In this document: piece by piece, positions 2,738-33,855 of the stretch
Numbering within the stretch: position 1 is the stretch's first letter
Layout of the letters: every line of letters starts with the position of its first letter
Source of the DNA: Saccharospirillaceae bacterium
GTDB taxonomy: Bacteria > Pseudomonadota > Gammaproteobacteria > Pseudomonadales > Natronospirillaceae
Length of the DNA stretch: 33,855 nucleotides
Direction of reading: 5' to 3'
Assembly (NCBI GenBank): GCA_007116635.1
Contig: SKIB01000071.1
Span: 1 to 33,855 of the forward strand
The notes under the pieces: generated by a model
Seen by the model: the letters and a program-made list of their open reading frames with translations, nothing else
Database searches by the model: none
Told to the model about the DNA's origin: nothing
Translations under genes and position numbers: made by a program

Positions 2738-4741
2738 TTAGCCAGTGCTTTTCACCTGCTTGATGAACATCTGAAACAGCTGAGCCATGGGCACCGGATA
2801 GGAAAGAACCGCAGCTATGGCCAATCGTTGACACTGCTGCTTGAGATACTCGTCCATCTCTTTGCGCTGCACTAGGGCAATGGGTAATTGGTGTGCATGC
2901 AAACGCAACTGTTCACGCACCATGCTGGCCGTGGTCAGGCCATCGACAAAGGGCATTTCACTGGCCAGAATCAACAAATCGAAGTGTTGATCCGCCACTG
3001 CTTGCAGCGCACTGAAGCCATTATCGAAGTGTTCCACCTCTGCACCCAGATCCTGTAATTGCTGTTTTAAAATCAAGGCATCGGTTTCCTGCTCTTCAAC
3101 CAGAAGAATCCGTTTGCCATCTAATTTTGGGCTCAAGGAGGAAGTAACAGCCTCGTCCAGTGGCAGGCTCAAATCAAAGGAAAAACAACTGCCCTTGTTG
3201 AGCCGACTTTGCACCCTGAGTTGCGCACCCATTTTGGCCAACAATTTCTGACTGATTACCAAGCCCATGCCACTGCCTTCGTACTGCTTGGTTCTACTGC
3301 TGTCGCCCTGAGCAAAGGCCTGAAATAGTTGGCGCATTTGCGCTTGGTCCATGCCAATACCCGAATCCTGAACCTCAAGATGAATGTCCAAGGTGGAAAA
3401 CTGCTGCCCATTGATAACCAATACCAACTCAACCCAACCACTGGGCGTGAACTTTACGGCATTGCTGAGCAGGTTCACCACCACCTGCTGCAATCGCGCG
3501 GCATCGACCAGCACCAACCCCGGTAAACTGGAGGGCAAACGAACTCTGAGCTCTACCCCCTTAGACAGTGCGCGCTCACGCACCAAAGCCAAGCTTTGAC
3601 GCAGTAAGGCCAGCAAATCCGTTGGCTGATGATGCAAGGCCAGTTTACCTGCCTCAATTTGTGATAAATCCAACAGATCGTTGACGATGCTTAGCAAATG
3701 CCGCCCTTGCTTGGCGATGGTTTTGAGTTGCTGCTTAGCCTCAGGCTGTTGGTTCGTCTGTAATAAATCAGCAAAACCAATGATGGCATTCAAGGGCGTG
3801 CGCAGCTCATGGCTCATATTGGCTAAAAACTCAGACTTGGCCTTACTGGCTTGCTCGGCCTTGGTTTTGGCCGCCATCAGCTCCTGCAGCACGGCTAAGC
3901 GAATCTGCACACTGACCACCAGTTCGACGAAGAAGGCCAAAATGCTGCGTTCCCGTTCGGTATAACGATGATGACCCTTGACCCAGTCAAAGCCAACAAA
4001 GCCCTTGAGCACTCCCTGATACACCAAGGGCAGGGTCAGGATGCTTTGGATGCCCTGCGGAAAGAGAATTTCTCGTAAAGGATCGCCCTCAGGCAAGGCA
4101 GGCACATCCGCCACATACATTTCTTTACCATTCTGATGGGCACTAAGCCATTCGGTGATGGCACCCACGGGGATCTGTTGCAGATTGTCGATCTCTGGCT
4201 GCACTCCAGGGGCGCACCATTCATGGGTATTGGAACAATGCCCCTGAGCCAGATCGTAGCGGAAAATATAGACTCGATCGGCGGCGACAAATTTACCCAT
4301 GGCCGCCAAGGCCTGATCAAAGCGCTGATTCAGTTCCTCAACTGGCATGTTCATAAATTGCTGCGCCATGGTTAGCAATAACTGCAAAGTGGCCTGATAA
4401 CTGTCCAGAGGGGAAATGTCTTGTAGGGCTAACCAACATTGGTCCTCAGCCTGTTTATAGACTTCCAGCCATTGCCAACACAGGCGCACCGGGTTGAAGA
4501 ACTCAAGCTGCTCATTGTCAACAATCAGGTCAAGGTCGAGCATGAGTTGCTTGAAATCTGGCACCGACCAAAGCTGAATAAAGGCCTGGTCAATCGGCCT
4601 GTCCATCAGGCTATCATTCAAGGACAGCAGACTGGCCAAAGCCGGATTGATGGCATGCAACTGCCAACGAGCATCGGGACCACGCTGCAAATGGGCGAAG
4701 CCAACCGAACTGCCTGCGATCAATTGCTCTGGTAGTTGCAT
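2738..4741 (-). CDS. hybrid sensor histidine kinase (PAS-like, GAF, HisKA, HATPase, degenerate receiver)
   Basis: 667 residues from the ATG at 4741, which has GGGG 6 bases upstream; an in-frame ATG at 4753 is possible but has no ribosome site. No membrane segments are seen, so it is probably cytoplasmic. In order: a PAS-like region (about 1-110), a GAF domain (about 125-280), a short coiled coil, HisKA with SHELRTPLN (phospho-accepting His311), HATPase_c with N-box NLLSNAVKF (from residue 423), DSGIGM and GSGMGL, and a C-terminal receiver-like domain (about 543-660). In that domain the residue four before the conserved Pro, normally the phospho-acceptor Asp, is Ala593 (in LLILASEMP), the conserved Thr/Ser is Val624 and the conserved Lys is Tyr648; only the acidic pair Glu549/Glu550 remains. 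The kinase core looks active but the receiver should not accept phosphate. No response-regulator gene is adjacent, so it is an orphan kinase. Confidence 0.9.
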   Translation of the reverse strand: MQLPEQLIAGSSVGFAHLQRGPDARWQLHAINPALASLLSLNDSLMDRPIDQAFIQLWSVPDFKQLMLDLDLIVDNEQLEFFNPVRLCWQWLEVYKQAEDQCWLALQDISPLDSYQATLQLLLTMAQQFMNMPVEELNQRFDQALAAMGKFVAADRVYIFRYDLAQGHCSNTHEWCAPGVQPEIDNLQQIPVGAITEWLSAHQNGKEMYVADVPALPEGDPLREILFPQGIQSILTLPLVYQGVLKGFVGFDWVKGHHRYTERERSILAFFVELVVSVQIRLAVLQELMAAKTKAEQASKAKSEFLANMSHELRTPLNAIIGFADLLQTNQQPEAKQQLKTIAKQGRHLLSIVNDLLDLSQIEAGKLALHHQPTDLLALLRQSLALVRERALSKGVELRVRLPSSLPGLVLVDAARLQQVVVNLLSNAVKFTPSGWVELVLVINGQQFSTLDIHLEVQDSGIGMDQAQMRQLFQAFAQGDSSRTKQYEGSGMGLVISQKLLAKMGAQLRVQSRLNKGSCFSFDLSLPLDEAVTSSLSPKLDGKRILLVEEQETDALILKQQLQDLGAEVEHFDNGFSALQAVADQHFDLLILASEMPFVDGLTTASMVREQLRLHAHQLPIALVQRKEMDEYLKQQCQRLAIAAVLSYPVPMAQLFQMFIKQVKSTG

Positions 4742-4753
4742 ATGTGACCCCAT

Positions 4754-12921: not shown

Positions 12922-14076
12922 CTAAGCTTTTCTTTCAACTGACACCTGAGGAACCGCCCCCAAATGGCGCATCACCTCCATGATTTCCTGTTCTTTGTCA
13001 GCAAGGTTCATCAAACTGGCCAAGCGGGTGATCAGTTTTTCACGGCGAATGATGCCAGTGGGCATCAGGTGAACGGCTCCGGTTAGCTCGCGTACGGCAA
13101 TGGGTAGATGCAGGTCGACCTTGATCTTGTTACCCGCTCGTGGACCAAACCGCGCCAGAACCTTAGTCAAAGCTTCTAGAGAACCCGAGTGCCATTGACC
13201 ACCCTTGTCCAGCCAGGCCTGAGCCAGGCGTAAAACAGCCAACTCTCCCATGTAGATCATCATGCAGGCCGCAAAGCAGGCTTCCGCATCGGCTTGATAT
13301 TTTTTTGCCAGCACATAGGCCGTTTTGGCAATCATCTGCATCCGGTCGCAATAATCCCTAGCCAGAGTCACCAGCCCTGGATGCACCAAGCCGTGGGATT
13401 GAAGTAGCAACTGCTGGCTGATGAGCAAACCACGAGCACTACCTAAGGCTTTAATTGCTTCCGGTACGCTTTCAATCACCTGTCCATTACTCAGTGATAA
13501 CCGATTAGCCTCGGCTATTAAATAAGCCACTAAAACAGTGGATTGACGAGCAAGCTGGTGCAATTCGCGCAGCGGCGAAGGGGAAAGGGTCAGCATGGAC
13601 AGATCTTTTTCAATGGCTGGATCATGAGACAGACGCAAGGCTGACTGTTCGATCTGTTCGACAATAAAGCCTTCAAGGGGCACAAGGGCATCCGTTTGCC
13701 CTGCTTCCTTGGGCTGATTTGGCAATAACTCTGCCAGCTTAGACAGCACCTTATGATGATTAAAAGGCTTAGACAGTATGGAATTGACACCGTACTTTTT
13801 GGCACGAATGACGGTGATGCGGTCGATCTGCTCAATGAGCAATAACACTGGTAGCTGTTTAATGGCCTGGCCAACGGACTTAAGCAGATCAAAGCCATCA
13901 CCATCGGGCAGCTTGGCCGACAGCACTAATAGCTGCACGCTCCATTGCTTAAGCTCAATGCGCGCGTTGTACAGATCGGCGAAGGCCAGAATCCGAGCAC
14001 TGGGCACCAAGCGTAGAACCGCGTTGGTCAACACTTGGCGCAGCAAGGGATCGGGCTCAACCAGGGCTATGTTCAC
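12922..14076 (-). CDS. receiver-like/HDOD domain protein with degenerate phospho-site
   Basis: 384 residues from a GTG at 14076, which has AAGGA 6 bases upstream; an ATG at 14082 is in frame but touches that site. The first 120 residues are a CheY-like receiver (NIALVEPDPLL; LPDGDGFDLL; LSKPF). The phospho-acceptor Asp is replaced by Ser53 (LSAKLP) and one residue of the acidic pair by Pro8, while Lys103 is kept, so ordinary phosphorylation is unlikely. From about residue 165 to 365 lies an HDOD-type helical domain (SPSPLRELHQLA; IAEANRLSL; SVPEAIKALGSARGL), found in proteins of signalling and stress control. It is the last gene of an operon with two acyl-CoA dehydrogenases; its start is about 20 bases after the preceding stop. 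Its partner is not known. Confidence 0.82.
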   Translation of the reverse strand: MNIALVEPDPLLRQVLTNAVLRLVPSARILAFADLYNARIELKQWSVQLLVLSAKLPDGDGFDLLKSVGQAIKQLPVLLLIEQIDRITVIRAKKYGVNSILSKPFNHHKVLSKLAELLPNQPKEAGQTDALVPLEGFIVEQIEQSALRLSHDPAIEKDLSMLTLSPSPLRELHQLARQSTVLVAYLIAEANRLSLSNGQVIESVPEAIKALGSARGLLISQQLLLQSHGLVHPGLVTLARDYCDRMQMIAKTAYVLAKKYQADAEACFAACMMIYMGELAVLRLAQAWLDKGGQWHSGSLEALTKVLARFGPRAGNKIKVDLHLPIAVRELTGAVHLMPTGIIRREKLITRLASLMNLADKEQEIMEVMRHLGAVPQVSVERKA

Positions 14077-14096
14077 CAGCATTCCTTAAAGATTGA

Positions 14097-24985: not shown

Positions 24986-25019
24986 CATAATGCAGGTATG
25001 GATTAACTATAGGTGTGCT

Positions 25020-25706
25020 ATGACAACAAGCAAAATTGTAGATCACTCACAACTGGAATATTTCCTGTCTCAGTGCCATAGGCGCAAATACCCCAGCAAA
25101 ACTACCCTGATTTATGCTGGCGACCGCAGTGATACCCTTTATTATGTGATTAAGGGTACGGTGTCGGTGGTGATTGAAGACAGTGATGGCCGTGAAATGA
25201 TCATGGCGTACCTCAACCCAGGCGACTTTTTCGGCGAAATGGGTTTGTTTGAGGACGTCGAAAATCGCTCCGCTTGGGTGAAAACTCGCACCGAGTGCGA
25301 AGTGGCAGAAATCAGTTACAGCCGCTTCCGTGAGATCGTTAAAGAAGACCCAACCGTGCTTTTCCGTATCGGTGAACAAATGGCCTCGCGCCTGCGTGAC
25401 ACCACCCGTAAAGTAGGCGACCTAGCCTTCTTGGATGTCACTGGTCGTGTGGCCCGCACCCTGCTTGACCTATGTGCTCAGCCAGATGCCATGACTCATC
25501 CCAATGGCATGCAAATCAAGATCACTCGCCAAGAAATCGGCCAGATCGTGGGCTGCTCAAGAGAAATGGTTGGCCGTGTGCTTAAAGCGCTAGAGGCCCA
25601 AGGCTTAATTTCAGTCAAGGGCAAAACCATGGTGGTCTTTGGCACTCGTGGCAAAGACGCTCGCCTAATGTCCGCTACTGCGGCCAATACCGGCCTGAAC
25701 GACTAA
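25020..25706 (+). CDS. vfr: cAMP-binding global regulator Vfr/CRP
   Basis: 228 residues from the ATG at 25020 (AGG about 6 bases upstream); an ATG at 24990 is in frame but gives a non-family extension. The cyclic-nucleotide domain holds [15 protein letters not shown] and [15 protein letters not shown], where the Arg-Ser pair binds cAMP phosphate. The DNA-binding part has the conserved [20 protein letters not shown] and the helix-turn-helix [20 protein letters not shown], matching Pseudomonas Vfr closely. It should activate or repress many genes in response to cAMP. After [10 protein letters not shown], where Pseudomonas Vfr stops, there are 18 extra residues. A bidirectional terminator follows. 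Confidence 0.95.
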
Positions 25707-27869: not shown

Positions 27870-28453
27870 GGATTCTCCTGAAGCTGGGCAACAAAGTTGG
27901 CTAACAGCGCATGGCCGTGCTCGGTTAAAATGGATTCAGGGTGAAACTGCACGCCTTGAATGGCCAGGCTGCGGTGCCTAACGGCCATGATATCGCCCTG
28001 TAGCCGATCCGCCAACCAAGCCGTGACCTCTAAGCAGCTTGGCATGCTTGCAGGGTCAATCACCAAGGAATGATAGCGCGTCACCCGCATTGGGCTGGGC
28101 AAACCAGTAAAAACACCCTGCTGCTGGTGAGCGATGCTGCTGGTGCGGCCGTGCAAAATTTCTTCCGCTGGTACAATCTTACCACCAAACACCTGGCCGA
28201 TGCATTGATGCCCTAAGCAAACGCCCAAAATGGGAATTTGGCCAGCAAAGTGGGCAATGGCCGCTAAAGAAACACCGGCTTCATTAGGGGTACAGGGGCC
28301 AGGACTGATCAGTAAGCCAGAGGGCTGCATGGCAACCAACTGCGCCAAGGAGTACTGATCATTGCGGACCACTCGCAGTGGCTGACCCAGTTGCTCAAGG
28401 TACTGCACCAGGTTGTAGGTAAAGGAATCGTAGTTATCTATTAGCAGTAACAT
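27866..28453 (-). CDS. trpG: anthranilate synthase glutamine amidotransferase component
   Basis: 195 residues, class I glutamine amidotransferase. [13 protein letters not shown] opens the protein; [11 protein letters not shown] carries the nucleophile Cys79, and VQFHPES holds His171 and Glu173, completing the triad. It releases ammonia from glutamine for TrpE and may also serve PabB, since TrpG and PabA are hard to separate by sequence. trpE is not in the window next to it, as in Pseudomonas, where trpE is set apart. First gene of trpG-trpD-trpC-small membrane protein. I see no leader peptide or attenuator in the 130 bases upstream. Confidence 0.94.
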
Positions 28454-28583
28454 GAATAGCGCTCAGAAATGCACAACCGCGAGTGTAACAATGGCGATGC
28501 AGGGCGCAAACCTATTTTGTCGATGACTGGACGAAAAAAAGCATCATGAACTATAGTCAATGAAACACTTGGGTAGTTTTTAA

Positions 28584-30767
28584 ATGGCCGATCTTGATCA
28601 AGACCTTATTGAATTTGCTGATGAACCGACGGAAGCTGTTGCGGTAACGGCCAAATGGCGGATTCTAATAGTTGATGATGAGCCAGATGTACACGCCGCC
28701 ACCACCTTAGCCCTGCGTGATACCCCTATTGAAGGGCGACAGTGTCATTTTTTACATGCCTATTCAGGGCAAGAGGCGCTGGACCTTTTGCGCCAGGAAT
28801 CAGACATAGCCGTTGCTCTCATTGATGTGGTGATGGAAACTGAAGACGCCGGCCTGCAACTGGTCAAAGCCTTGCGTGAAGAATTAGGCCTTAAAGACAT
28901 CCGCGTCATCTTGCGCACCGGCCAACCTGGCTATGCCCCTGAAATCGACACCATCAAGCGCCATGACATCAATGACTACAAAACCAAATCGGAATTGACC
29001 CGCATTCGGCTGTTCACCAGCCTGAGCATGGCGATTCGTTCCTATGCACAGATTCAACAGTTGCACCAGAACCAAAAGGGCCTAGAGCACATTTTACAGG
29101 CAGCATTAACCCTAAGCCGAGAACAGCAACTGGACAGCTTTTTGACGGCACTTGCCCTGCAAGTACAGCAAATGCTTGGTCTGGAACCGAGCACCTGGTT
29201 TGCTTTGAATGCCCAAGCCCATCCGAACAATAGGCAATTCCTTGCAGCCAGTGAGACTAACCTTTGCAACCAGGTCTTTGCGCCCCTGGAGGATGCACAG
29301 CATAACCTTGTCATCGAGCAGTGCTTAGAGCACAAAACTCATCAGCTAAGCGAAGACAAAGGGCTGTGCCTTTACCTAGCCAGCACACCCAAGCCCTATC
29401 TACTGTTTTTGGCCTTAGAGCAACCCTTGACCAGCATTGAACAACAGCTGCTGCCCATTCTTGCCAGCCATGCCAGTGCCGAGCTGCAAAACCTGCAACT
29501 GTATTGGCGCATCAATGACCTTGCCTATCGCGATGCATTGGTTGACCTGCCAAACCGTAACGGGCTGCTGCTGTGGATGGACAACCATAGCGCCACGGGC
29601 CAGCAGCTCGCTCTGATTGACCTAGACGGCTTTGCTGATCTTAACAGCATCTTAGACGACAGCTTTGGCGACCTGGTGTTGCAGTCTACCGCACTGCACT
29701 TACGCCAACACTTCAGCGCCAAAACCTGTGTGGCGCGCATCGGCAGTGACATCTTTGCCCTCTACGGCCCCAAAGAAGAAGTAAACAGTAAACAGATTAT
29801 GCAACTCTTTGCCGAGCCCTTCATCAACCTGACTGACGAGAGCCTGCGCATCAGCGCCACGTGCGGGCTAATTGACATCGACATCAACCCAGGAACCAGC
29901 ATTCAACGGCTGAAGAATGCTGGTGCCGCTCTTAAAGAGGCCAAACTCTTTCACCGTGGCCAATGCCACTTTTTCCAGCAACAACTGGCCGATGCCGCCA
30001 AAGATCGGATGCAGCTGCTCAATCGGTTGCGCCAAGCCTTCTCCAGTGAACGGCTGCAGCTTTATTATCAGCCACAGTACGACCTAACGAATGGCCAAAT
30101 GCTGGGCGCGGAAGCCCTATTACGCTGGCAAACCGACGACGGGCGATTCATTCCCCCTGATCGCTTCATTCCTTTAGCCGAGCAGTCGGGCTTGATGGCC
30201 CCATTAGGAGACTGGGTGATACGCACGGCCTTAAAATGGCGTGCCGAGCTTAAATCAATTGTGGCGGACTCGTTTAGAGTGGCCATTAATGTGTCACAGA
30301 TTCAGTTTAATGATCAGCGATTTGTGGAAACATTACTCAGCCACATCCAGCAACAAGGCCTTGAAGGTTATCAGGTTGAAATTGAACTGACTGAATCCGT
30401 GGCCATCGAAAAACTGGAACTGGTACGAGAAAAATTGACCCAACTGCAACAATTTGGCATTCAGATCGCGCTGGATGACTTTGGTACTGGCTACTCCTCG
30501 CTCAGCATATTGCAGCACCTGCCCTTGAACCGACTTAAGATAGACCGCAGCTTTGTTAGCGGCCAAGCAGAGGCTGCGCAAAACTTGGCCGAAACCATCA
30601 TTGCCCTAGCCAAACAACTGAAACTGAACACCATTGCCGAAGGCATAGAAACTCCTGAGCAGCAGGAGTGGTTGAGGCAGTTAGGTTGCCAAGAGGGGCA
30701 GGGCTACTACTACTCTCCGCCCGTGAGCCCGGAATCGTTTCAGAAACTGTTAACAAATAAAGCCTAG
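28584..30767 (+). CDS. receiver-DUF3369-like-GGDEF(degenerate)-EAL cyclic-di-GMP phosphodiesterase
   Basis: 727 residues, no membrane segment. An intact receiver (about 25-150) has ILIVDDEPD (Asp31/32) and ALIDVVMETEDAG with phospho-acceptor Asp81. A GAF/DUF3369-like linker spans about 155-305. The GGDEF domain (about 315-460) has GSDIF (387-391) instead of GGDEF, so cyclase activity is unlikely. The EAL domain (about 480-725) keeps all catalytic marks I can check: EALLRW (Glu510), INVSQIQF, EIELTES, DDFGTGYSS (631-639), LKIDRSF (Lys652), AEGIETPEQQ (Glu687) and EGQGYY. It is therefore predicted to hydrolyse cyclic-di-GMP when its receiver is phosphorylated or released. It is followed by a solute-binding lipoprotein gene (64 bases) and a histidine kinase, the probable phospho-donor. 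Confidence 0.92.
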   Translation: MADLDQDLIEFADEPTEAVAVTAKWRILIVDDEPDVHAATTLALRDTPIEGRQCHFLHAYSGQEALDLLRQESDIAVALIDVVMETEDAGLQLVKALREELGLKDIRVILRTGQPGYAPEIDTIKRHDINDYKTKSELTRIRLFTSLSMAIRSYAQIQQLHQNQKGLEHILQAALTLSREQQLDSFLTALALQVQQMLGLEPSTWFALNAQAHPNNRQFLAASETNLCNQVFAPLEDAQHNLVIEQCLEHKTHQLSEDKGLCLYLASTPKPYLLFLALEQPLTSIEQQLLPILASHASAELQNLQLYWRINDLAYRDALVDLPNRNGLLLWMDNHSATGQQLALIDLDGFADLNSILDDSFGDLVLQSTALHLRQHFSAKTCVARIGSDIFALYGPKEEVNSKQIMQLFAEPFINLTDESLRISATCGLIDIDINPGTSIQRLKNAGAALKEAKLFHRGQCHFFQQQLADAAKDRMQLLNRLRQAFSSERLQLYYQPQYDLTNGQMLGAEALLRWQTDDGRFIPPDRFIPLAEQSGLMAPLGDWVIRTALKWRAELKSIVADSFRVAINVSQIQFNDQRFVETLLSHIQQQGLEGYQVEIELTESVAIEKLELVREKLTQLQQFGIQIALDDFGTGYSSLSILQHLPLNRLKIDRSFVSGQAEAAQNLAETIIALAKQLKLNTIAEGIETPEQQEWLRQLGCQEGQGYYYSPPVSPESFQKLLTNKA

Positions 30768-30774
30768 GCCAAAC

Positions 30775-30802
30775 TTGCAGCCCTAGCCCTCTGGGCTACA
30801 CT
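30775..30802 (+). promoter_or_regulatory. possible internal promoter before the lipoprotein gene
   Basis: TTGCAG (30775-30780), a 16-base spacer, TACACT (30797-30802). The transcript would start near 30809 and cover the lipoprotein and kinase genes without the EAL gene. The spacer also holds a short AGCCC/GGGCT hairpin. Confidence 0.4.
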
Positions 30803-30831
30803 CAAAAGACAGCCCAACCCCGGAGTCCGGC

Positions 30832-31779
30832 ATGAACAAACTAGGTTTTACCCTTGGGTTTTTGCTTTGTTTATCCCTTTTGCTGATGGGTTGTGGCTCT
30901 CCAGAGGCGGAGCCTGACTCTAGCAGCCAAGCGGAGAAGCAAATCGCTCAGGTCAGCGATAGCTTTTATAGTCAGTTAAGCCATGAGGATCAAGCCTTGG
31001 TGGCGCGGATTCAAGAGCGCGGTCGGCTAGGCTTTGCCGTACGCCAGGGTCAAGACTCTTATCAAATTGACGATCAAGGCAATATTCGTGGCTTTGACTA
31101 TCATCTTGCCCTAGCCTTCGCTCAAGCCTTGAGCCTTCCTGCCGAATTTGTGGTGATTGAACAGGTTTCCGACTTCTATGCCGATCAAGAAGGCTTCGAT
31201 CCGGCGGTTATAAACGATGACAGCATCCGCTATCACCCAAGGTTATTCTCCCAAGTGGATGTGCTTGCTGGCCCTCTAGGCATTAACCCCTGGCGTTTAC
31301 GCTTGAGCCGTATGGTGGCCATGCACCCTGCATCCATCAGCATCATGGGGCCTAACGCCAGCCAGATCACAGAAAAGTCAAAGCTAGACGGCAAAACCAT
31401 ACCCATAAGGCCTGGTGATTTCATGCACAGCCTACTGCTCAACATCATGGAACAAGAACAGATCCAGATCGAGTTCCTACCCTTTGATCAAGAAAATCCC
31501 GTAGAAATGACATTAACAGGTCAAGCGGATCTGGCGGTCGATGGCTCTATGTTTCTTGCTCGGTCAGTAGACCTAATCAAACAAGTAGAAGTTTCGCCCT
31601 TACGCCTGAGCATCGTCCCTGTTGCCTGGGCGGTGCAACTGGACGATCTTGATCTTTATCGCATCCTTGGACTCTTCATCAGTCATAGCCTTGAAACCCG
31701 GCTTTACCATGAGATTTGGAGCCGTGAGATGGGAATCGATTTTGATCTTTACCTCTCCATTGCTGGTGACCTGCTTTAG
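30832..31779 (+). CDS. solute-binding-protein-like lipoprotein, likely kinase partner
   Basis: 315 residues with a lipoprotein signal: MNKLGFTLGF, a Leu-rich core and lipobox LMGC with Cys21; Gly follows the Cys, so no Asp+2 inner-membrane retention signal. Beyond a Ser/Glu-rich linker comes a type 3 periplasmic binding fold: ERGRLGFAVRQ, IRGFDYHLALAFAQAL, KLDGKTIPIRPG and LTGQADLAVDG match the usual strands and hinge. Such proteins bind amino acids or similar small ligands. No ABC-transporter genes are nearby; instead a membrane histidine kinase starts 8 bases downstream, so the protein may serve sensing rather than uptake. GGAG lies about 5 bases before the ATG. Confidence 0.82.
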   Translation: MNKLGFTLGFLLCLSLLLMGCGSPEAEPDSSSQAEKQIAQVSDSFYSQLSHEDQALVARIQERGRLGFAVRQGQDSYQIDDQGNIRGFDYHLALAFAQALSLPAEFVVIEQVSDFYADQEGFDPAVINDDSIRYHPRLFSQVDVLAGPLGINPWRLRLSRMVAMHPASISIMGPNASQITEKSKLDGKTIPIRPGDFMHSLLLNIMEQEQIQIEFLPFDQENPVEMTLTGQADLAVDGSMFLARSVDLIKQVEVSPLRLSIVPVAWAVQLDDLDLYRILGLFISHSLETRLYHEIWSREMGIDFDLYLSIAGDLL

Positions 31780-31787
31780 GAGCCTAG

Positions 31788-33392
31788 ATGACTCTGAAAC
31801 GCCGCTTGTTATTGGTTTTCTTACCTCTGAGCATCAGCCCCTTTGTGCTGCTGATGCTGGTGCAATTACTCCTAAGCCGCTCCTATTTGCTCAACCACCA
31901 GCAAGAGTTGATGCTACTGGAGCGTGAGGTGGTGACTCAGGATTTCGTGCGCCGCCAACAACAGCTGCAACAAAGCCAACTGGCCAATGTGACCTTCTTC
32001 CGTAACCAACTGATTGAGCGCGCCGCCCAGCGATTTCAAGGACATGCTCCTCTTGAGCGCGGCCTTATCGTGTTCACGGCACAGGGCGAGTGGCTTTATC
32101 CTACTGCTCTCAACGGCCGCACCGGCTTCAGTACTGAGGAAGCCAGTGAGCTGAATAGCCTGTTGCGCAGCCAAGACATCAGCCGACAAGCTGGCTGGTT
32201 TATTCGTATGCCTAGCCAGATCTACAGCATCACTGGCCTGGTTCAAACCGACACAGGCTTAAGTCTGTTACTCTACCAACAACAGGCCCAAGCCTTGGCA
32301 CCTCTCTATCAGTCGGCCTATTACGCCGTATTAATTGGCATTCTTACTCTAAGCCTTGCTCTCAGCCTGATGGTTTGGGCCTCCAAACGGATCAGCAACC
32401 CCATAAGCCACCTCACCCAAATCGTCACCCAATTTGGTGCTGGCAATAGCCATGTCCGAGCCGAAGTACGGATGGGCGGCGAGGTTGGGGTACTGGCGCA
32501 AGAGTTCAACCAAATGGCCGACCGGCTGCAATCCTTCACCAAATTGCTCGAAAGCAAAATCAGTGAGCGCACCCAAGAACTGGAACAACGTTTGATTGAA
32601 CTCAAAGACACACAAGAGCAACTGATCCAAGCAGAAAAACTTGCCGCTCTTGGCTCCATGGTGGCGGGCATTGCTCATGAACTGAACACCCCCATTGGTA
32701 ATGCGGTGACCGTGGCCAGTAGTCTAATTGATAGCAAAGAACGCTTCGATGTGTTGTTACAACAGGGTTTGACTCGCAGCGCACTGGACAGGCTGTTGGC
32801 CGATGTCGAAGAAGGCAGCCAGATCATTCATCGCAACCTGCAGCGAACTGCTGAGCTGATCAAAAGCTTTAAGCAACTGGCCATTGATCAAACCAGTGAT
32901 CACAGGCGTAACTTCTCACTGTCCGAAGTTGGCCAAGAGGTTCTCTTTAGCCTCAAGCCCAGCTTGAAGCAGCACCCTTGGCAGCTGAGCACCGACATTG
33001 ACGCTCAGCTGGAATTCGACAGCTACCCTGGCGCCCTGAGTCAAATTCTGATTAACCTGATCAACAATGCTGTGCTACATGCCTTTACAGGCCGTGATCA
33101 GGGCCAGATTTGCATTACAGGCAAGAAGCTAAACACCGGCTGGGCCAGCATCAGTATCAAGGACAACGGTCTAGGTATCCCCGAAGACATACAGCAACGT
33201 GTGTTTGAGCCCTTTTTTACCTGTAAGCTAGGCCAAGGCGGCTCAGGCCTTGGCCTACACATTTGCTATAACCTGGCTACCAACCTACTTGGTGGGCGTA
33301 TTTTACTGCATAGTAAGATCGGGACTGGCTCAGAGTTTATCCTAGAGCTGCCATTGGTTGCTCCGCAGGCGGTCTACGAGCATCAACATTAA
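31788..33392 (+). CDS. membrane sensor histidine kinase with HAMP domain
   Basis: 534 residues; GGAG 5 bases before the ATG. TM1 is at about 7-29, a periplasmic domain at about 30-175 of no type I can name, TM2 at about 177-197, then HAMP (198-250), a coiled coil (250-290), HisKA with GIAHELNTPIGNAV (phospho-accepting His297), and HATPase_c with NLINNAVLHAF (N-box, from 423), DNGLGIP (459-465) and GGSGLGLHI. No receiver domain is attached. The nearest receiver is in the EAL protein two genes upstream, so it probably phosphorylates that protein. Its stop overlaps the convergent parC stop by a few bases. Confidence 0.93.
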   Translation: MTLKRRLLLVFLPLSISPFVLLMLVQLLLSRSYLLNHQQELMLLEREVVTQDFVRRQQQLQQSQLANVTFFRNQLIERAAQRFQGHAPLERGLIVFTAQGEWLYPTALNGRTGFSTEEASELNSLLRSQDISRQAGWFIRMPSQIYSITGLVQTDTGLSLLLYQQQAQALAPLYQSAYYAVLIGILTLSLALSLMVWASKRISNPISHLTQIVTQFGAGNSHVRAEVRMGGEVGVLAQEFNQMADRLQSFTKLLESKISERTQELEQRLIELKDTQEQLIQAEKLAALGSMVAGIAHELNTPIGNAVTVASSLIDSKERFDVLLQQGLTRSALDRLLADVEEGSQIIHRNLQRTAELIKSFKQLAIDQTSDHRRNFSLSEVGQEVLFSLKPSLKQHPWQLSTDIDAQLEFDSYPGALSQILINLINNAVLHAFTGRDQGQICITGKKLNTGWASISIKDNGLGIPEDIQQRVFEPFFTCKLGQGGSGLGLHICYNLATNLLGGRILLHSKIGTGSEFILELPLVAPQAVYEHQH

Positions 33393-33855
33393 ATGGCTTC
33401 AATACTGGCCACTTGCTGCAAGCCACGCGGCAAACGATGGCCACGGCGGCCACGGTCGGACTGGTAAAACTGCCAGTCTTCAGGTTTTAGGGTCATTTTG
33501 CGCTTACCGGCGGTGATCACCAAGCTCTGCTCAGGGCCAAGCACCGCCATGGCCACCACTAACTCTTCTCGCTGCTCGGCCTTTTCGGCTGGGATGTTAA
33601 TCAGTTTATTGCCCTTGCCCTTGGCCAATTCAGGCAGCTGGTTCAGAGGGCAGATCAACAACCGGCCGTCAGTGCTGGCAATGGCCAAGAGCTGGCTGTC
33701 TTTATCGTCAAAGCAAACAGGGCTCAACACCCTGGCCTGATTGGTCAGGGTCAAGACCGCCTTGCCCTGACGAGTCTTGCTCAGCAACTGACTCACCTTG
33801 GTAAGGTAACCATAGCCGGCATCTGAAGCCAAAACCAAAGCCTGTTCTTCTGGCA
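33389..33855 (-). CDS. parC: DNA topoisomerase IV subunit A, C-terminal part (cut by window edge)
   Basis: The open frame enters from the right edge and ends at 33389, giving about 155 residues of the C-terminal beta-pinwheel of ParC. LASDAGYGYL, GKAVLTL, LPELAKGKGNKLINIP, AGKRKMTLKPEDW and DRGRRGHRLPRGLQ match ParC blade repeats and its C-terminal end. Topoisomerase IV unlinks daughter chromosomes. The catalytic half lies outside the window. Stop codons of parC and the histidine kinase overlap (33389-33392). Confidence 0.93.
   Translation of the reverse strand, partial: PEEQALVLASDAGYGYLTKVSQLLSKTRQGKAVLTLTNQARVLSPVCFDDKDSQLLAIASTDGRLLICPLNQLPELAKGKGNKLINIPAEKAEQREELVVAMAVLGPEQSLVITAGKRKMTLKPEDWQFYQSDRGRRGHRLPRGLQQVASIEAI

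Follow-up and report, generated by a model that had tools for sequence, protein, structure and literature searches.

A predicted cyclic-di-GMP phosphodiesterase two-component cassette with an MltF-type lipoprotein as candidate sensor partner

In a stretch of 33,855 nucleotides from a Saccharospirillaceae bacterium (GenBank assembly GCA_007116635.1, contig SKIB01000071.1; hereafter the window), three genes follow one another on the same strand and encode a response regulator ending in an EAL domain, a lipoprotein and a sensor histidine kinase (Table 1). We analysed this trio as a candidate signalling cassette, in which a periplasmic binding protein would act through a kinase on the hydrolysis of cyclic di-GMP (c-di-GMP). 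The open reading frames (ORFs) bore out the arrangement given in an earlier note on this DNA, with 64 bases between the regulator and lipoprotein genes and 8 bases between the lipoprotein and kinase genes. No terminator-like site found on the + strand falls within either gap, and this absence, together with the common strand and the short gaps, suggests that the three genes are co-transcribed. A promoter scan of positions 28400-33500 returned one sigma-70-like match, upstream of the cassette, which is fewer than the 4.0 expected by chance from shuffled sequences.

Pfam analysis of the regulator identified Response_reg (residues 27-135), DUF3369 (149-308), GGDEF (314-458) and EAL (480-713) domains, with scores of 86 bits for DUF3369 (cut-off 27.2), 34.5 for the receiver (REC; 30.2) and 241.5 for EAL (31.3). 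The earlier note had described a receiver/degenerate-GGDEF/EAL protein, which was correct, and had not named DUF3369; this domain, above its cut-off and placed between the receiver and the phosphodiesterase domain, makes the protein a member of the REC-DUF3369-EAL type. Because the GGDEF signature is degenerate and reads GSDIF, the protein does not qualify as an active diguanylate cyclase and cyclase activity is unlikely. In an alignment of 18 rows (the window and 17 relatives), the receiver residues D81, T112 and K135 were invariant, in line with the earlier choice of Asp81 as the receiver aspartate. The EAL residues E510, N569, E601, D631, D632, K652, E686, E689 and Q706 were identical in all 18 rows; these are residues that we take to have catalytic roles, and the regulator is a predicted c-di-GMP phosphodiesterase. 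Transmembrane (TM) prediction found no TM segment in it.

The kinase comprises two TM helices (residues 7-25 and 180-198), a HAMP domain (197-248), a HisKA domain (288-352) and a HATPase_c domain (416-523), the HisKA match of 24.2 bits lying just below the Pfam cut-off of 26.9. Pfam found no receiver domain in this protein, which agrees with its previous description as a HAMP histidine kinase lacking a receiver of its own. No Pfam or PDB match was obtained for the periplasmic sensor part.

Table 1. Position of the cassette genes and of their predicted functional elements in the window
Feature	Position	Strand	Basis
Sigma-70-like promoter match TGGACG-18-TATAGT, upstream of cassette	28528..28557	+	weak match
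REC-DUF3369-degenerate GGDEF-EAL response regulator, 727 amino acids, predicted c-di-GMP phosphodiesterase	28584..30767	+	ORF, Pfam
Receiver Asp81 codon, predicted phosphoacceptor	28824..28826	+	alignment
Degenerate GGDEF signature GSDIF, residues 387-391	29742..29756	+	sequence
EAL domain, residues 480-713	30021..30722	+	Pfam, alignment
Lipoprotein, 315 amino acids, free-standing MltF-type periplasmic binding module	30832..31779	+	ORF, profile, lipobox
Lipobox LLMGC, Cys21 codon	30892..30894	+	sequence pattern
MltF-type binding module, residues 60-298	31009..31725	+	profile of 27 modules
Sensor histidine kinase, 534 amino acids	31788..33392	+	ORF, Pfam, TM prediction
Kinase periplasmic sensor part, ~residues 26-179	31863..32324	+	TM prediction; low-confidence model
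Predicted phosphorylated His297 codon (AGIAHELNTP)	32676..32678	+	sequence, alignment

The lipoprotein had been called solute-binding-like, which was right but loose. Its Pfam SBP_bac_3 match extends over 34 residues only and, at 21.5 bits, stays below the cut-off of 26.4. The NCBIfam MltF model matched residues 48-118 (E 4e-9), with 35.4 bits where the equivalog cut-off is 354, and the PDB matches included GlnH (0.0065) and MltF (from 0.03). A profile of 27 MltF-type modules, built without the lipoprotein, matched it in two pieces over residues 60-298 with an E-value of 1.6e-19 (255 targets; best of 200 shuffles, 0.94), a value that flatters the kinship because the modules came from proteins retrieved by the lipoprotein's own search. 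The SBP_bac_3 proteins of other cassettes scored between 0.31 (L178) and 1.5e-13 (L123) against the same profile. When the single lipoprotein was compared by hhalign with five SBP_bac_3 proteins and with six Peripla_BP_6 proteins, no relation was detected (probabilities of 0.85 and 0.94 percent), and its patterns had no match in viral contigs. Judged by the profile matches, the lipoprotein appears to be a divergent SBP_bac_3-like protein whose nearest kin is MltF's regulatory module.

Besides itself, the lipoprotein matched 21 places in whole genomes, corresponding to 20 proteins: 11 of ~470-560 amino acids, eight of ~720-780 and one of 287. All six of the shorter proteins that were put through Pfam carried one SBP_bac_3 domain and an SLT transglycosylase domain, and both of the longer ones carried two SBP_bac_3 stretches and SLT. 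These MltF-like and tandem-module transglycosylases, its closest relatives found, would fit a lipoprotein that acts on peptidoglycan enzymes in the manner of MltF's module, or as a structural wall binder, independently of the kinase. We hold this to be very improbable, since the lipoprotein ends at residue 315 after its binding module, with no Pfam match to a transglycosylase domain, and lies between signalling genes whose relatives hold other classes of solute-binding protein (SBP) in that position.

According to passages of one report on Pseudomonas aeruginosa, the regulatory domain of MltF is occupied by cell-wall muropeptides, upon which the catalytic domain opens (PMC10746161). With MltF's module as its nearest kin, the lipoprotein would more probably respond to a wall fragment or a peptide than to a free amino acid, and an origin of the ligand in the cell wall is a tentative suggestion by analogy, to which we give less than even odds. 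The earlier proposal of a type 3 fold sensing an amino-acid-like ligand stands for the fold family, but its ligand is doubtful; with MltF-like relatives and an SBP_bac_3 score below the cut-off, a free amino acid was moved from favoured input to second place.

The kinase and the EAL regulator had been proposed to be partners, and their sequences look cognate. Distances between kinase cores and between receivers co-varied over 55 pairs (Mantel r 0.83, 0/2000 permutations; locus L165 left out). Because species descent alone could give such a correlation, we used swaps between paralogues of the same genome (the window's genome and genome G192 supplied two pairs each), and in 4/4 cases the similarity ranking of the regulator fitted its own kinase better than the other one (0.83/0.53, 0.75/0.57, 0.66/0.56 and 0.87/0.60). 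On these sequence comparisons, we regard the two proteins as very probably cognate.

DUF3369 was present in 20/22 genomes of the family, in 65/293 sampled genomes of the order (64 above the cut-off) and in 29/369 sampled genomes of the class (21 above the cut-off). We assembled 146 DUF3369 loci, namely 60 genome neighbourhoods, 80 named loci, five plasmid records and the window. An alignment of six REC-DUF3369 proteins served as query for the named loci, which are the best 80 of 577; since an SBP was already present at three of these queries (the window, L048 and L071), the sample is biased towards relatives of theirs. It excludes four EAL-type loci (L225-L228), in which the SBP seeds found none. 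The census counted 124 EAL-type genes, 60 of them with a related kinase within 4.2 kb. An SBP gene lay within 2.5 kb of 16 of the 60 EAL-type genes with a kinase vs none of the 64 without one; the SBP profiles, of seven kinds, were built from linked cases, so that other classes near kinase-less genes could escape, and for 11 of the 64 the available stretch ends less than 4.2 kb away. Fisher's test gave 2.8e-6, a value that is too small because many rows of the census are related and not independent. The 16 SBP-linked genes are distributed over 15 loci, which include two Pseudomonas metagenome-assembled genomes (MAGs), two Pseudorhodoferax and two Azospirillum, and without the three seed loci 13 of 57 EAL-type genes with a kinase keep an SBP. 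None of the 15 DUF3369 genes that have a kinase and no EAL domain had an SBP beside it, and an iterated SBP search found no further place in these loci. Among 133 genes more than 4.5 kb away, Pfam gave no SBP family with at least three members among the 25 of 235 families listed; lower counts would have escaped this listing, and we did not use the figure as a rate.

The order regulator-SBP-kinase on one strand was observed in eight loci, the slot being filled by four SBP classes: MltF-type, ABC_sub_bind, Peripla_BP_4 and Peripla_BP_6. A genome of the window's own family carries ABC_sub_bind (L048, 1.6e-27) and one of its taxonomic order carries Peripla_BP_4 (L071, 1.3e-42). Peripla_BP_6 occupies the slot in two Pseudomonas-group MAGs (L142, 2.1e-44, and L169), in Dechloromonas sp. 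H13 (L159, 3.6e-54, gaps of 6 and 8 bases), in a Rhodoferax MAG (L145, 3.9e-42) and in Pseudorhodoferax sp. Leaf265 (L156), where the row continues with a kinase, a Peripla_BP_6 gene and a kinase. An SBP beside the kinase/regulator pair, as the earlier note had described it, is in this way a feature that recurs across several lineages, and in many cases it is a lipoprotein that occupies this slot.

Other arrangements were also found. The order is SBP_bac_3-kinase-regulator in L075 and L178 (Propionivibrio soli), and in Azospirillum lipoferum 4B and Azospirillum sp. B510 a BMP-family SBP and a kinase converge with the regulator. In Zoogloea oleivorans a 677-residue protein with SBP_bac_1 and a weak SBP_bac_3 match directly follows the EAL regulator (L144, 12248-14281). 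In Allochromatium and Thiobaca (L123 and L124; Pfam run on L123) a regulator of this type has as its neighbour a kinase into which an SBP_bac_3 domain is fused, and in L103 such a fusion adjoins a regulator without EAL. We also checked the link in reverse. The SBP of L159 matched 4/369 class genomes at 1e-30, of which one supports the link with DUF3369 and three do not: the best match (G520; L221, G520:C100 404-13067) is a Peripla_BP_6 gene in a kinase row behind a DUF3369 regulator without EAL, the match in G337 adjoins genes resembling transport permeases, and those in G513 and G463 had no DUF3369 or kinase match within the 8.0 and 6.3 kb read. L221 may indicate that the SBP arrangement is not limited to EAL outputs. 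In two Pseudorhodoferax loci (L156, 10001-20946, and L165, 1977-13525), arrays of Peripla_BP_6 lipoproteins and kinases lie beside EAL-type DUF3369 regulators, as if several sensor pairs fed one or two outputs. An apparent regulator-kinase fusion of 1465 residues in L165 was dropped, since its record has frame jumps and a stretch of N, and a 164-residue protein between a porin-like gene and the regulator of L187, with no Pfam match, was not counted as an SBP.

In three loci of one genus (L079, L082 and L083), TRAP permease genes lie upstream of an EAL regulator and a kinase, and transport and c-di-GMP may be coupled there; in L050 a DctP SBP is divergent from the regulator/kinase pair. SBPs normally serve transporters, and these loci agree with the idea that the lipoprotein serves a transporter encoded elsewhere and that the kinase reports on transport. 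For the window we consider this improbable: its cassette has no permease by ORF and Pfam scan (the earlier note had stated this of ABC permeases), the binding module has its nearest kin in MltF, and the lipoprotein is predicted to be anchored, whereas Gram-negative SBPs are described as diffusible (PMC11113362).

Seven of the eight SBPs in the regulator-SBP-kinase order have a lipobox (the exception is L071; that of L156 is seen in one chosen reading frame), and L156 and L165 together hold three more Peripla_BP_6 genes with this feature. The pattern was found in 0/6 SBPs of other arrangements (the single match in L207 comes from a doubtful upstream start), in 0/9 SBP_bac_3-matching proteins encoded by the genome of the window (one of which is incomplete at its start and at least one of which is a kinase) and in 1/7 other SBPs of the stretches. 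Because the Peripla_BP_6 cases look like one family, we count the lipoprotein state in three SBP classes. By the usual sorting rule, a glycine after the lipobox cysteine sends a lipoprotein to the outer membrane. In the window a glycine follows Cys21, and because ~37 residues also separate this anchor from the binding module, the protein could conceivably extend across the periplasm.

The regulator tree (56 rows, quick method, SH-aLRT support) grouped the window with L074 and L129, in which no SBP was found, and with L071, which has Peripla_BP_4 (support 99); this clade sits next to L128, with no SBP found, and L178, with SBP_bac_3 (support 100). Presence of a separate SBP requires at least nine changes on the tree, and the six Peripla_BP_6 rows require two. 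The SBP class changes inside well-supported clades, and therefore a single type of kinase/regulator pair has acquired, lost or exchanged SBPs that belong to different classes. The exact trio is another matter. With the window's genus represented by one genome, lipoprotein matches were obtained in 4/57 relatives (the window's genome and three weak ones) and in 18/369 class genomes (the window's genome and 17 weak ones). No full-length orthologue was found in these genomes, so that the earlier expectation of the same trio elsewhere was not borne out and the trio as such is not shown to be conserved; the cassette architecture is conserved, with other SBPs.

We propose, with a probability of roughly 0.6, that the three genes form a two-component system for c-di-GMP hydrolysis in which a binding protein serves as accessory sensor, and with comparable confidence that the lipoprotein is the sensor partner of the kinase. 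The lipid-anchored MltF-type module would bind a small periplasmic ligand, most likely a peptidoglycan fragment or a peptide, and the lipoprotein, ligand-bound or free, would touch the periplasmic domain of the kinase. The kinase would then alter its autophosphorylation on His297, phosphate would pass to Asp81 of the REC-DUF3369-GGDEF-EAL protein, and hydrolysis of c-di-GMP by the EAL domain would change, in either direction. The phosphotransfer and output steps follow from the protein families, and we infer the binding of a ligand, the action on the kinase sensor, the transfer to Asp81 and the sign of the output. As in SBP-activated kinases, the SBP gene adjoins the kinase gene, and the slot recurs in other lineages; of the SBP-kinase couples characterised in print, 10/11 are gene neighbours (PMC11113362).

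Several points weigh against this proposal. Between its two TM helices the kinase carries a sensor part of its own, ~150 residues long, which could by itself bind a ligand. No SBP of the seven kinds covered by the search lay near 44/60 kinase/regulator pairs, so that such a pair frequently manages without any of these; the nearest regulator relatives, L074 and L129, are among the loci without an SBP by profile search. The adjacency of the lipoprotein itself has no parallel in the genomes searched, where it had no full-length orthologue. AlphaFold gave no usable structure of the lipoprotein alone (mean pLDDT 34.8), and in models of kinase residues 1-260 with three relatives residues 65-172 stayed below pLDDT 50. 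MltF-like modules themselves pass SBP_bac_3 (8/8 checked), and the term MltF-type is best taken as a statement of apparent nearest kin and not as proof of a ligand. In P. aeruginosa, the kinases AgtS and AruS did not interact with the SBPs encoded in their vicinity, and among the 58 kinases of this species only two cases were seen in which two-component and SBP genes lie close together (PMC11113362). The length of the sensor part, the many pairs without an SBP and these two adjacent sets without interaction speak for the alternative that the kinase senses its ligand directly and that the lipoprotein is a bystander, or a separate wall-fragment binder, co-transcribed by chance. We consider this unlikely, although it has to be taken seriously, because different SBP classes recur in one slot, the census shows SBPs solely at regulators that have a kinase nearby, and seven of the eight in the slot are predicted lipoproteins; four classes reusing one slot are hard to ascribe to chance.

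In the LuxPQ and TorTS systems a separate SBP works with a kinase that has a periplasmic sensor domain, and NspS of Vibrio cholerae acts directly on a membrane GGDEF-EAL protein. The cassette with an accessory sensor that we propose shares with the SBP-activated kinases LuxP-LuxQ, TorT-TorS and BctC-BctE a separate SBP whose gene usually adjoins that of a kinase with a periplasmic sensor, as passages of two papers describe (PMC11113362, PMC9602780); it differs in its output, a predicted c-di-GMP phosphodiesterase, and in an SBP that is predicted to be lipid-anchored and MltF-type. With NspS-MbaA of V. cholerae (cited in PMC11113362) it has in common an SBP that steers a c-di-GMP enzyme, but it does not belong to that kind, having a kinase and a soluble receiver protein in between and an EAL protein in which no TM segment was found. 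The module of MltF is the nearest by profile and is occupied by muropeptides in the passages available (PMC10746161), whereas the lipoprotein has no catalytic domain and lies within a signalling operon. VCA0210 of V. cholerae likewise joins REC and DUF3369 to a c-di-GMP phosphodiesterase domain, to judge from passages of PMC4212101, but this is HD-GYP, where the window has EAL and an SBP gene in the operon. In RmcA of P. aeruginosa an SBP_bac_3 domain is tied to c-di-GMP control (passages of PMC8846402), but it is part of the c-di-GMP protein itself, and neither a separate SBP nor a kinase takes part. Kinases driven by SBPs are already known, and so are c-di-GMP enzymes driven by SBPs; what appears new is the set of SBP, kinase and REC-DUF3369-EAL protein, in which the SBP is often lipid-anchored and of exchangeable class, here an MltF-type module. 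In the passages found on SBPs, kinases, c-di-GMP and wall fragments we recognised no report of such a cassette, most subscription papers lying outside the search, and those found on DUF3369 describe no EAL/SBP set. Among Cycloclasticus mutants, a kinase and a periplasmic substrate-binding protein whose locus tags are adjacent are named beside a c-di-GMP pathway, contact between them not being shown in the passages at hand (PMC8547461).

For most kinases feeding c-di-GMP networks the stimulus has yet to be demonstrated, and a 2022 review terms direct demonstrations of contact between stimulus and kinase 'exceptionally rare' in this field (PMC8846402). Because the likely sensor in such cassettes is a separate SBP, and ligand screens on purified SBPs are routine, the stimulus would here be directly testable. 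The SBPs span several classes, and strains with names are among their carriers (Azospirillum lipoferum 4B, Dechloromonas sp. H13 and Propionivibrio soli, none of them known as a pathogen), so that lines from ligand to c-di-GMP could be worked out in parallel, and an MltF-type member that binds wall fragments would link wall turnover with c-di-GMP. A bolder version, in which a lipid-anchored MltF module freed from its transglycosylase reads peptidoglycan fragments and sets c-di-GMP through the kinase, the pair being a general chassis for interchangeable lipoprotein SBP sensors, is doubtful at present; if true, wall turnover would steer decisions on biofilm and motility.

The cassette is flanked on one side by trpG and trpC, with a gene read as trpD between them, and on the other by a gene with DNA gyrase C-terminal repeats. 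A CRP-family DNA-binding regulator was identified by Pfam at 24990-25706, 2.9 kb from the cassette and beyond the trp genes, so that the earlier statement that no DNA-binding regulator is near holds for the cassette only. In the window's genome, DUF3369 matches were confined to contigs C64, C56 and C116. C64 (L047) and C56 (L055) hold two more kinase/DUF3369 pairs; in one the regulator is EAL-type and preceded by the kinase, in the other it lacks EAL (~520 amino acids), and neither has an SBP gene next to it by SBP profile search. SBP_bac_3 and kinase-core matches share one frame of 551 residues at C94:8074-9510, apparently a kinase with a fused SBP. The window itself encodes a further kinase/receiver protein with TorS/BarA-like matches (2738-4753) and a separate receiver protein with an unassigned output part (12922-14082).

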